Shown: positions 1,109 to 18,562 of the stretch, in pieces
Numbering within the stretch: position 1 is the stretch's first letter
How the letters are laid out: every line of letters begins with the position of its first letter
Source: a virus
Reading direction: 5' to 3' (one strand)
Virus record (IMG/VR): IMGVR_UViG_3300030103_001640
Coordinates: 1,733-21,861 of that record
DNA length: 20,129 nt
Notes under the pieces: model-generated
What the model was told of the DNA's origin: nothing
The model's input: only the letters and a program-made list of their open reading frames with translations
The model's database searches: none
Translations under genes and position numbers: made by a program

Positions 1109-2401
1109 CTAGAAAAAGGGATTACCGACGTATCCGTATTTAGCTCCAGTTTCATATGCCCTATATAAATTTTCAGAATTTTTTACTACGTCAATGCCCT
1201 GATTTAATAAATTGGCAGCAACTCCTGTTGGTTCTGTTACTAAGGATTGAGGACCCGGTACTAACCCAGCTTGATCTGCTCTAAGTTCAGCTTCTGAAAG
1301 TTTGTGTTGAATTTTATTTAAAAGAGTTGGGTTGTTTTCATATTCTTCTGCTCTTGCATCGATATCACTAAGCAGAATACTTGCACCTCCCAAAACACCA
1401 GAGGGAAGAACAAGTCTTGCTAGGTTTTTATTTGCCTTAAGTATATCCATGGCTTTAGATTTAAGAGGTATTTTAGACAGCCATTCAGCTTTCATTTCTA
1501 AAAGACTTTGCCCTGTATCTACTACTCTTTCAGAAAATAAATATCTCCATTTTTTATATAGTTCTTCTAGACCGTTTTTCCCATTTACACCGTTTACACC
1601 GTTTACACCATTCTTTATTCCGTTCGTTACACCGTTTGCTTTCTTATGATAACTTTTTTCTAATTGATCAAGGAAATCTTTTGACTGTGGAGTTTTTATA
1701 AACTGTTTAAACTTAGCAAACTCGCCTTGACTTAAAGCGATACCTTTACTAAATGGATCAAAATTATTAAAGTCACTAGCATTTACAGCCCAAAGCTTGT
1801 CAGCGTGTTGACCTAAATCACTTTGTTGTACTTTAAAAGCCCACGGTGCTTTATAAATATCACCACTTCCCATTTGTTTGGAAAATTGTTCTGCTAGATC
1901 TTTATCAGTTTTTAGCCAATCAAGTTCTCTAAATATGACATTACCTATATCATCAGAGCCAATACTGTCAGCACCAAATCTTTTGTAAAACTCTAAAGAT
2001 GTATCGTGCTCTTCGTAAAACTGTAAACCATACTTAGCACCTTCTTTTGCTGTATTTTTAAAATTTGTTCTAGCTTTGTTTACTTCTTTAAATGAATCTA
2101 GATTTTTATACCATTTGTTATTTGTTCTTTTTAATTCAGAACTCTTTTGGGTTAGTACGTTATTAAATTTCCAGTTACCATCATTACCAGATTTAAAAAA
2201 ACCTGAGTGCATATAGTTGCCTTGATCATCAGTAAAATTTACCGTTGATTTCCAGTCCCCTAAGCCTTTTTTTGACCAGTTACCTGTATCTGTTTTTAGT
2301 CCACTTTCTTCTAATCTTGTTATAAACTGATTTTTTAAATTATCTTGTTGGCTATAGGGAACTGTAAATACACCTTTATCATCTGGCGTAAATGTTTCCA
2401 T
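1109..2401 (-). CDS. Orphan 430-residue protein with Asn-Gly repeats, between HNH gene and terminase
   Basis: I do not recognise a function. The N-terminal part (1-130) is polar and rich in Asn, Lys, Trp and aromatic residues. Residues 256-277 form a low-complexity linker of repeated NG units (NGVNGVNGVNG), encoded by a near-perfect 9-nt tandem repeat. A hydrophobic stretch lies at about 329-345 (LVLPSGVLGGASILL). It is followed by an acidic, Ala-rich tail (346-405) containing EYENNPTLLNKIQ and ending near GIDVV, which resembles C-terminal modules I associate with cyanophage late proteins; that is recollection, not proof. There is no signal peptide and no nuclease motif that I can see. The ATG at 2401 directly follows the seven-U tract of a strong terminator, and the only Shine-Dalgarno-like sequence (GAAAGGG) sits inside the terminator hairpin, so expression is probably low or conditional. 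It could be a minor virion protein or an accessory (moron) gene. Confidence 0.8.
   Translation of the reverse strand: METFTPDDKGVFTVPYSQQDNLKNQFITRLEESGLKTDTGNWSKKGLGDWKSTVNFTDDQGNYMHSGFFKSGNDGNWKFNNVLTQKSSELKRTNNKWYKNLDSFKEVNKARTNFKNTAKEGAKYGLQFYEEHDTSLEFYKRFGADSIGSDDIGNVIFRELDWLKTDKDLAEQFSKQMGSGDIYKAPWAFKVQQSDLGQHADKLWAVNASDFNNFDPFSKGIALSQGEFAKFKQFIKTPQSKDFLDQLEKSYHKKANGVTNGIKNGVNGVNGVNGKNGLEELYKKWRYLFSERVVDTGQSLLEMKAEWLSKIPLKSKAMDILKANKNLARLVLPSGVLGGASILLSDIDARAEEYENNPTLLNKIQHKLSEAELRADQAGLVPGPQSLVTEPTGVAANLLNQGIDVVKNSENLYRAYETGAKYGYVGNPFF
1571..1636 (-). repeat. 9-nt tandem repeat coding an Asn-Gly linker
   Basis: Within the 430-residue orphan gene the minus strand repeats the 9-nt unit GGTGTAAAC, with degenerate copies on both sides, producing NGVNGVNGVNG inside residues 256-277. 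The copies are nearly identical in DNA, so the tract is likely to vary in length by slippage in whole codons. Confidence 0.8.
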
Positions 2402-2448: not shown

Positions 2449-2778
2449 TTAATTAATGTGGCTATGTATTAGCCGTTCTCTATGAGGGATATGACCAAAA
2501 GTTGATCTCATCCAACTCAACCAGTAAGTACTACCTTTGTCCTGATTACATCTTCTGCAAGCGGGTACGACGTTACTTGTAAGGTCTTCACCGCCATAAC
2601 ATTTAGGTTTGACATGATCGATAGTGAGTTGATGTAGTTCATAATTGTTTCCGCAATAAACACATGTGCAATCGAAGTGCTCTTTCACAGCACGTCGCCA
2701 TAATCTCTTTGATTCAGAGCTGGTCATGGTTATTAGGTTATAAAGGTAATGTTTAGGACTAGGTAGTAAGGGGGTCAT
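2449..2778 (-). CDS. HNH endonuclease
   Basis: A small metal-dependent nuclease of the classical HNH type. The zinc-binding cysteines CVYC (39-42) and CRRC (74-77) bracket the catalytic core: TIDHVKP with D54-H55, then N69 in LTSNVVPAC and N78 after the second Cys pair. At 109 residues it is little more than the HNH fold. The ATG at 2778 overlaps the TGA of the upstream basic-protein gene as ATGA, which suggests translational coupling. A second ATG at 2727 (MTSSESKRL) would remove 17 residues of unremarkable sequence and is an equally good start. The gene lies between the small and large terminase genes, a position where HNH proteins assist packaging in some tailed phages; a homing-type or host-DNA-degrading role is also possible. 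The family call is certain, the role is inference. Confidence 0.93.
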   Translation of the reverse strand: MTPLLPSPKHYLYNLITMTSSESKRLWRRAVKEHFDCTCVYCGNNYELHQLTIDHVKPKCYGGEDLTSNVVPACRRCNQDKGSTYWLSWMRSTFGHIPHRERLIHSHIN

Positions 2779-15297: not shown

Positions 15298-15721
15298 GGC
15301 AAAATTCTATAAAGGGTAAGTTGTTAGGTCCATGAGATCTTTCTCCTAGAAATTGAAAATCTAAAAACCTAAGTAGTTTTAAGTGGACTGCATTTCTTTT
15401 ATCAGCTATATTCCACAATTTTTTTTCTTTACGGGTGTTTAAATACCTTTTAAGTCCTCTAGAAAAAGTTAAAGGGTATTTATAAATTACATCTGTACAT
15501 AACATCCATATTTGACCTGTAGGATAAATCCCTGCTACAGCAGCAATTTCACCGTAAAGCTCTATATACTTTGACTCGATATTTGCAGAAGCTAAGGGTA
15601 TAGCCACCATAGGATCATGTCCATGACCCTCTGTAACTTCTTTAAAGTCAGCAGGTAATAAATTGGAGGCGACATGAATAGCCGCCTTATAGGTCAATTT
15701 TTTTAATTTGAAATTAGACAA
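15218..15721 (-). CDS. T7 gp13-like protein
   Basis: A 167-residue protein of the phage gp13 family (T7 gp13, 138 residues, needed for a normal particle but not a stable virion component). Shared features are an N-terminal AxxLLPADFKEV, a central IAAVAGIYPTGQIWMLCTDVI strand-rich region, then TFSRGLKRYL and the most telling motif NIADKRNAVHLKLLRFLDFQFL, which looks like the C-terminal helix of acetyltransferase-like folds. The predicted start is a TTG at 15721, overlapping the tail-tube-B stop by 8 nt; another TTG a few codons on is possible and no ATG lies early enough. The last 24 residues, after FIEFCRV, are almost only Ser, Arg, Asn, Ile, Asp and Glu and lie in the region shared with the gp14-like gene, so this tail is probably a by-product of overlap. 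Confidence 0.8.
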   Translation of the reverse strand: MSNFKLKKLTYKAAIHVASNLLPADFKEVTEGHGHDPMVAIPLASANIESKYIELYGEIAAVAGIYPTGQIWMLCTDVIYKYPLTFSRGLKRYLNTRKEKKLWNIADKRNAVHLKLLRFLDFQFLGERSHGPNNLPFIEFCRVQSNSSRSRDIRSRSNRSIRSIESS

Positions 15722-16943
15722 CTCTATAATTTTTATTAGTTAAGTCTCCCTCCCATGCCAATGAATATAATGTCGTTGGAGAAGGATGAGATGACGATAT
15801 AGTTATAGTTACGTTTGTATTTCGATCATAGATTGGTACATTTTGGACTTTCTCAGGTAAAAAACTTATAGCATTGGCTTGAGTAGTATCAGCAGTTGTA
15901 GATTCATAAGTTTGTTCATAATCAGCTCGACCTGTTCTACTTAATTTAGTTTTAAATAAACCATTAGTACCAAAGAACACTTTAAGTCTATGCAGAATAA
16001 GAGAGTTATTTTGTTGTACACGCTGTTCATTGCCACTGGTAACTTTATAGTAAAAAGTTGGTAGCTTTACTTCCATATCAAATAGATAACCAATCTTAAA
16101 CGTTTCACTTTTCCAGTCACCATCAAGCTCTAAATTACTACCATTTACCGTAGCCGCTCCATACCTAGTAATGTTATTACCAGAATCTATGTCAATAGCA
16201 ACAATTTGATTTGTACTTTCAAACCCGGTTGGTTTAGCAAAAGTAGTTTTATTTGTTGTTGCATTATAGGTATTAGATGCCGTTGTCACAGAAGCTATAT
16301 TGTCTAAATGAATCCTATAAATAATGTCATCATCAACAATTGTATTGGATGAAGTATCAAGTTTTAAATCAATTCTTTGCAGTTGATCTTTACTGTTGTT
16401 TCTGACTACTGCATATAAAGAATCATCTAGTACACAATGATGTTGGATAGTTCCTGTTAGCTCCCATGTAAACCATGCTTGCTGTATACGCTTCTGACCT
16501 ACATCAAAATACTTATAACCATATAAGATATTTTTATTTTTCTCTCCAAACAGAATTAATCCATTCTCTCTAGAGATTGCAACCAACGTTATATTCTTAT
16601 CAAATAATCTACTAACAACTTTTGATTGCTCTATTATTTGTGGCTCACCTTCTCTTTGTGCTCCAGCCATTTCCCAGAATCTGGAGTATTTACCAGCATC
16701 ATCTAAGAAACCAATAGTTGTACCGAGTGAAACTGGATTACTTTTAATATTAAAATTATAAGATGATAAAGAATTTATTTTGGCTGTATTAGATGACAAG
16801 ACATCACTATCTGTTGTCAACATAAACTGTTGATTTTTAGTAAATAAAATTAAACCACTATTAACTTGTATACCATCATAAACAATAGCTGGATATTCAG
16901 AACTACAAGATAAGTCAATCATATCTGAACTTGAGAATGTCAC
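15714..16943 (-). CDS. Tail tubular protein B (T7 gp12-like), C-terminal part
   Basis: This frame carries the C-terminal half of the nozzle protein. In-frame codons just ahead of the GTG at 16943 encode NFWAKTA, and the sequence continues VTFSSSDMIDLSCSSEYPAIVYDG, ILFTKNQQFMLTTDSDVLS and FWEMAGAQREGEPQIIEQSK, all strongly characteristic of gp12 proteins of cyanopodoviruses. It ends in YSLAWEGDLTNKNYRVV. The GTG forms a GTGA overlap with the stop of the upstream ORF, which would allow coupled translation, but the protein family is normally one chain (T7 gp12 has 794 residues; the two pieces here total about 949). The segment that should connect the pieces (NRLxFLSxENVxxSRxGxFF in relatives) is missing. 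The frame is therefore the downstream part of a gene with an internal deletion. Confidence 0.88.
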   Translation of the reverse strand: MTFSSSDMIDLSCSSEYPAIVYDGIQVNSGLILFTKNQQFMLTTDSDVLSSNTAKINSLSSYNFNIKSNPVSLGTTIGFLDDAGKYSRFWEMAGAQREGEPQIIEQSKVVSRLFDKNITLVAISRENGLILFGEKNKNILYGYKYFDVGQKRIQQAWFTWELTGTIQHHCVLDDSLYAVVRNNSKDQLQRIDLKLDTSSNTIVDDDIIYRIHLDNIASVTTASNTYNATTNKTTFAKPTGFESTNQIVAIDIDSGNNITRYGAATVNGSNLELDGDWKSETFKIGYLFDMEVKLPTFYYKVTSGNEQRVQQNNSLILHRLKVFFGTNGLFKTKLSRTGRADYEQTYESTTADTTQANAISFLPEKVQNVPIYDRNTNVTITISSSHPSPTTLYSLAWEGDLTNKNYRVV

Positions 16944-18562
16944 AGCAGTTTTAGCCCAGAAATTCTAAAAAATAAAAGCTTATTTATAGTGGATCCTACA
17001 AAACTTCCACGTGGATTAGTTCCATTTTCTCCAGTAGTACCAACAAGTGCATTAGTCCAAGATATCTGTTCAACTTTAAATGTGCCATCAGCTAACCTTT
17101 GTATTTGAATAGGTAATGTAGCTGCGTCATATTGAATATTTTCTCCGGGTTTTACACATTCTTCCCAAACACCTTCACCATCTCTGTCATTATGACCAAA
17201 GAATTTGACGAAATAATCATCCTCTTCTGCTGTACTGTTAGCAACTTTGACTATCATTCCGTGTTTACATTGCCGTGGTAATTCAGCAACGTCATTAACT
17301 TCTCCAGAGACAACAGTTAATAACTCACTTGCAGAAGAAGCCGCATTAAAGGAACCTGACGCTCTTGTTATATACAAACCATTACCAATAGTTTGAACAT
17401 TAGCATCACTAAAATTACCTGTGGCAATAACATCTTTACGTATACCACCAAGAATTGAATCGGTAGTAACTGTTGTTTGAGTATCGAAAGCTGTTGGTGT
17501 AGGACGTATTAAACCTAAGTTTGCTTTAACAGAAGATTCACTATGATCTTTAACTGTAATTTTATACTTAGCATTCTCCATCCAGACATAGAAGAAATCA
17601 CCAGTTCTCCAACCTTGTCCACCATGTAATAATTCAACTTGTGTTCTATAACGACAAGTATATTTTGGATTTCCTACATCACTTTCGGGTAAAGCTTGTC
17701 CAGTGGTATCAATTCTAAATATTAAATCTTTACGATCACTAGCACTTCCACCATTAGCTGTAACTGAATATGTATGAGCGATATTATTTTTATCGGCTGC
17801 AACTCCAGAATCACCGTTACTTATAGAAAATATACGTACAGCTACATTGGGGCACATCCCATCTTCTTGGGGATTATTTGTGTTGTAACACCAGCTTGTA
17901 TAACTCCCTGTACCGGGTTCTGTTCCAGATGGTGCGAATGTTTGTCCATCACTTGTACAACTATTACCACTATCTACCTCTCTGTCTATATCTATTCTAG
18001 TGGCAGTATAAACAGTTGTTGTACTTGTACTGTCATATAAATCTACTGAATATTGTGAGGCATATGATTTTCTTTTTAATTCTAAAAATACTTCCGGTGG
18101 TCTAGCTGTTTCAACTGTACTTGTCATAGCTACAGTCTTAGTACGATTAGTTACATAAGTAATATCGTTTAAAGTTAGAGTTTGTAGCTGTTCGTCATCT
18201 GTATGAGTTAAATAATTTGTTAACGCACTTGATGTACCAGAATCATAATTGACAGTCATTGATGCACCGTCACTACAACGCCACATATTGACATCACCTG
18301 CCCTAGTGATCTGTCCTATATATTGTTCAGTTTCATCTCTGTAATAACTAAACCATCTTCCATTAGTGGAGGAGTTTAAGGCAGATGTCCCGTTATCACT
18401 TAATGAAGCTATAAATTTACTACCGGGTCTTTTTATCAATCCGAGAGTTACATCAGGCAATACATTTTTAGCTGAAGAAACTTGTCCCGGTAATTTTAAA
18501 TCATCTGGTTGTTGTGAAATACCAGCGGTTAAAGTAGGTATTGTCTGAGTAACACTTGTCAT
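16940..18562 (-). CDS. Tail tubular protein B (T7 gp12-like), N-terminal part
   Basis: The first 540 residues of the tail nozzle protein, beginning TQTIPTLTAGISQQPDDLKLPGQ and continuing with VLPDVTLGLIKRPGSKFIA, a classic gp12 opening that shapes the lower tail tube below gp11. Later segments (YFVKFFGHNDRDGEGVWEECVKPG, LADGTFKVEQISW) are also typical. After STINKLLFFR the frame turns into ISGLKLL and stops at 16940, where homologues continue with a conserved NRLxFLS segment. The other half lies in the next frame (16943..15714). The ATG overlaps the stop of tail tube A as TAATG. Without the missing segment and the C-terminal half this product alone would not be a functional nozzle protein, so the true state of the gene needs checking. 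Confidence 0.92.
   Translation of the reverse strand: MTSVTQTIPTLTAGISQQPDDLKLPGQVSSAKNVLPDVTLGLIKRPGSKFIASLSDNGTSALNSSTNGRWFSYYRDETEQYIGQITRAGDVNMWRCSDGASMTVNYDSGTSSALTNYLTHTDDEQLQTLTLNDITYVTNRTKTVAMTSTVETARPPEVFLELKRKSYASQYSVDLYDSTSTTTVYTATRIDIDREVDSGNSCTSDGQTFAPSGTEPGTGSYTSWCYNTNNPQEDGMCPNVAVRIFSISNGDSGVAADKNNIAHTYSVTANGGSASDRKDLIFRIDTTGQALPESDVGNPKYTCRYRTQVELLHGGQGWRTGDFFYVWMENAKYKITVKDHSESSVKANLGLIRPTPTAFDTQTTVTTDSILGGIRKDVIATGNFSDANVQTIGNGLYITRASGSFNAASSASELLTVVSGEVNDVAELPRQCKHGMIVKVANSTAEEDDYFVKFFGHNDRDGEGVWEECVKPGENIQYDAATLPIQIQRLADGTFKVEQISWTNALVGTTGENGTNPRGSFVGSTINKLLFFRISGLKLL

Follow-up and report, generated by a model that had tools for sequence, protein, structure and literature searches.

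A 61-bp omission private to one scaffold, and probably an artefact, splits the gp12 nozzle gene of a P-SSP7-like cyanophage

In phage T7, gp12 serves as the nozzle that retains DNA in the particle, and its structure centres on a seven-bladed beta-propeller, which shuts the DNA channel (PMC6702177). Two solved nozzles, T7 gp12 (6r21) and cyanophage P-SCSP1u gp23 (8i4m), are sequence homologues of the gene described here in its intact form (E = 2.9e-49 and 8.4e-58, respectively). Closer still are the nearest isolates P-SSP7, P-SSP3 and P-SSP2, with about 70% DNA likeness over gp12 and about 57% protein identity, in which P-SSP7 gp12 (AAX44210.1) and tail tubular protein B of P-SSP3 and P-SSP2 are each encoded by one CDS, about 2.93 kb long, that keeps NRLVFLSDENVIMSRPGEFFNFW whole and follows the same placement between gp11 and the genes for internal virion proteins. 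We analysed a 20,129-nucleotide stretch (the window) that begins at base 1733 of a virus scaffold of 21,861 bp and runs to its end. Its minus-strand late genes are the T7-like cyanophage set of major capsid protein, gp11, gp12, internal virion proteins and tail fibre, and the order major capsid - gp11 - gp12 - internal virion proteins is that of P-SSP7. The source is an otherwise ordinary marine, P-SSP7-like (T7-like) cyanophage, and the other genes of the window are intact. A putative terminase-like ORF was assigned from its own sequence, and an HNH endonuclease gene lies near it (window 2449-2778).

Unlike all of these described genes, gp12, the gene for tail tube B, is read in the window as two minus-strand ORFs. 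The 5' part (540 aa, 16940-18562) matches positions 1-361 of PHROG 457 and the Pfam family PF25675 (Phage_nozzle), while the 3' part (409 aa from GTG 16943, 15714-16943) matches PHROG 457 at 390-793 and PF25675 at 384-794, so that the two halves adjoin within one family. The 5' ORF ends in STINKLLFFR, departs from the family sequence after LFFR, and runs through a seven-residue out-of-frame tail, ISGLKLL, to TGA 16942-16940. The 3' ORF rejoins the family at NFWAKTAV; its homologous frame is open from NFWAKTAVTFSSSD, at 16964 onward, with an in-frame TAG (16967-16965) immediately 5' of NFWAKTAVTFSSSD and a first usable start at GTG 16943, and the stop of the one ORF and the start of the other share a GTGA overlap (16940-16943, minus strand). 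The single continuous frame is therefore broken at 16962-16965, and 20 residues are absent from the segment FFRNRLxxLSxENVxxSxxxxFxNF, which is present in both single-chain solved nozzles. The first-pass annotation had described gp12 as split by out-of-frame loss of a conserved NRLxFLSxENVxxSRxGxFF segment of about 20 codons, and that description is confirmed here.

The intact form of the gene was found in a near-identical genome, IMGVR_UViG_3300030376_004869 (43,723 bp), with 100% protein identity over the 409-aa downstream part of gp12. Both ends of this genome carry the same stretch of about 260 bp as a direct terminal repeat (L089 1-260 and L091 13464-13723, judged from matching 60-base starts), and it is therefore probably complete; the scaffold that holds the window begins inside this repeat. 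Over 21.8 kb, the scaffold and the near-identical genome differ by 13 substitutions, by a 9-bp in-frame change in a tandem repeat, by a scaffold gap of 10 N and by one 61-bp absence (16962-16965). In the near-identical genome, gp12 is one uninterrupted ORF of 969 aa, which covers PF25675 to position 794 and, within a gene order common to both, is identical in protein to both halves of the window's gene except for V254I. Between bases 16965 and 16962 (minus strand) the window lacks exactly 61 bp of this gene, although 2 bp of microhomology (AA) make the precise breakpoint uncertain. Since the missing stretch amounts to 20 codons plus one base, the gp12 frame is lost, and the length estimated in the first-pass annotation proved accurate. 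Read from this gene, the ancestral state of gp12 is settled as a predicted single chain of about 969 aa.

The missing segment matters to gp12. Across its 20 positions the commonest residue averages 89%, compared with 74% over the whole protein, and it aligns without gaps to residues 356-375 of T7 gp12. A predicted structure of the intact protein was of moderate confidence (mean pLDDT 65.7) and was used for local strands only; in this model three successive strands would lie at 528-532, 535-540 and 543-547, of which the deletion would take the last two. By its position and strand pattern, the segment would sit in the beta-propeller.

To place the break among relatives, we used the downstream half of gp12 as a query, which ranks split and unsplit genes alike and is thus a fair test, whereas the ranking with a full-length query (80 loci) favours intact genes. 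Among the 80 loci retrieved with the downstream half, together with three reference phages, no gp12 was split at this site, and every locus covering the site stays in a single frame along FFRNRLxxLSxENV..NF; L065 carries the conserved segment, and L074, which begins inside the segment at a contig edge, does not cover the whole site. The break is thus neither a chance feature nor a product of mistaken homology. Natural absence of the segment in gp12 homologues, which would have spoken against a deletion, was rejected, as every relative with sequence across the site carries the segment. When 78 loci of the P-GSP1 branch were added, 160 of the resulting 161 loci had no frame break anywhere in gp12, giving a small base rate (a single further gp12 break in 161 related loci) against which such splits in IMG/VR can be judged. 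The sole exception, L039 (3300038714_000189), has a frame break near codon 125 (about 2147), away from the window's site, and this is probably a single-base error. A pattern scan of IMG/VR with the junction 25-mer yielded no further contig, while the 31-base flank occurred there only in the intact near-identical genome and in none of the GTDB genomes scanned; scans of this type may skip the record that holds the window.

These comparisons bear directly on whether a working nozzle could be assembled from the split gene, either as two chains through termination-reinitiation at the GTGA or as a fusion through -1 frameshifting on A AAA C just before the stop, in each case without the 20-residue segment kept by every relative. 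The GTGA overlap is indeed present, and a ribosome that slipped by -1 between 16964 and 16943 would enter the downstream frame again. The codons at and around the GTG, however, are unchanged internal codons of the intact gene, bar one synonymous substitution; the GTG itself is an ordinary Val codon there (A-V-T), and the overlap is therefore incidental. No purine-rich ribosome site precedes it, although several true genes of this phage also have none. With regard to the fusion, because the TAG immediately abuts the homologous codons, a slip could take place only within the 22 bases that follow it, and such a product would still miss 20 highly conserved residues that form two successive strands in the moderate-confidence model; a -1 frameshift was accordingly rejected as a means of restoring the segment. 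A genuine split would be expected to recur in independent genomes, yet the junction is absent from the rest of IMG/VR and the relatives are unsplit here. We therefore consider a functional two-part nozzle, which the first-pass annotation had kept as one of its options, highly improbable: against it stand the intact gene of the near-identical genome, the unsplit genes of all close relatives and a start that is an unaltered internal codon. If it were true, the nozzle core would tolerate a break, and nothing here supports this.

The sequence around the breakpoints indicates how the join could have formed. The exact overlap is 2 bp (AA), but beside the breakpoints TTTTTAGAA and TTTTTATAA are alike at 8 of 9 bases, and 8 of 12 bases agree when twelve are compared, a likeness that just 0.95% of the 40-89 bp deletions possible in the gp12 gene attain. 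Short similar sequences of the slipped-mispairing kind are thus found at both breakpoints, in the form of two similar T-rich stretches 61 bp apart, and a hairpin may form over the right breakpoint (9 of 200 shuffled sequences fold as well). A repeat search found no long direct repeat. The earlier observation that both ends are T-rich held, whereas the TTTTTT it placed before AATTTC did not, the intact copy having TTTTTAT. Likewise, its suggestion of a deletion between T-rich sequences stood, whereas assembly collapse between short repeats did not: the overlap is 2 bp when exact and 8 of 9 when inexact, and both are too short for k-mer collapse, so that collapse on an exact repeat was rejected. 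Better candidates are a chimeric read, a false inexact overlap made while a gap was being closed, and a true deletion by slippage. The join fits a slipped or misaligned joint, which could form in a cell, in the tube during PCR or whole-genome amplification, or where gap closing accepts inexact overlaps.

If the joint was made in a cell, the window would carry a real 61-bp deletion that arose when TTTTTAGAA slipped and mispaired with TTTTTATAA as the genome replicated, a recent dead variant whose defective virion gene happened to be sampled in a dead or complemented genome. This is supported by a breakpoint likeness rarer than 1% of possible deletions, by the possible hairpin, and by the intact state of the remaining genes, as expected of a fresh event. 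Given that gp12 is the DNA-retaining nozzle (PMC6702177), however, a genome with this deletion would not be expected to propagate unaided and ought to be uncommon, and yet the deleted form is the sequence of this scaffold, with a junction absent from every other IMG/VR contig. On this evidence we regard a true deletion as unlikely, if by no means negligible.

We judge it likely that the split gp12 is an artefact of library preparation or assembly. As far as IMG/VR sequences go, the 61-bp omission is private to one metagenome-derived scaffold, in keeping with the suggestion of the first-pass annotation that the genome is defective or in error at this spot. The omission would have arisen where the two T-rich stretches look alike, most plausibly through a chimeric or slipped molecule from library preparation or through a false inexact-overlap join made when thinly covered sequence was assembled or its gaps were closed, and we infer that it entered in the laboratory or the computer rather than in a cell. 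Directly before the window, scaffold bases 1723-1732 are 10 N where the complete genome has 3 bases, and such a gap in place of real bases is a sign of imperfect, perhaps low-coverage assembly; together with a substitution about 30 bp from the gp12 junction, it leads us to lean towards poor local data, short of proof. Against an artefact, a k-mer assembler would not normally build such a junction unless at least one read, or an imperfect overlap guided by read pairs, supported it, so some junction-bearing molecule may have existed; moreover, the window is clean outside this site, which speaks against a sequence full of errors throughout. The split was thus correctly read, but the sequence probably does not represent a living virus, which calls for caution, as a convincing split of an essential gene in an uncultivated virus scaffold dissolved once a near-identical genome was found.

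Two further differences from the near-identical genome lie far from gp12. The 9-bp in-frame length difference falls in a tandem repeat of the TACACCGTT type at window 1590-1605 (NGV repeats within a 430-aa ORF, 1109-2401). In the N-terminal part of the same ORF, 6 of the 13 substitutions are gathered within 131 bp (window 2248-2378), four of them changing an amino acid, marking a recombined or fast-changing spot.
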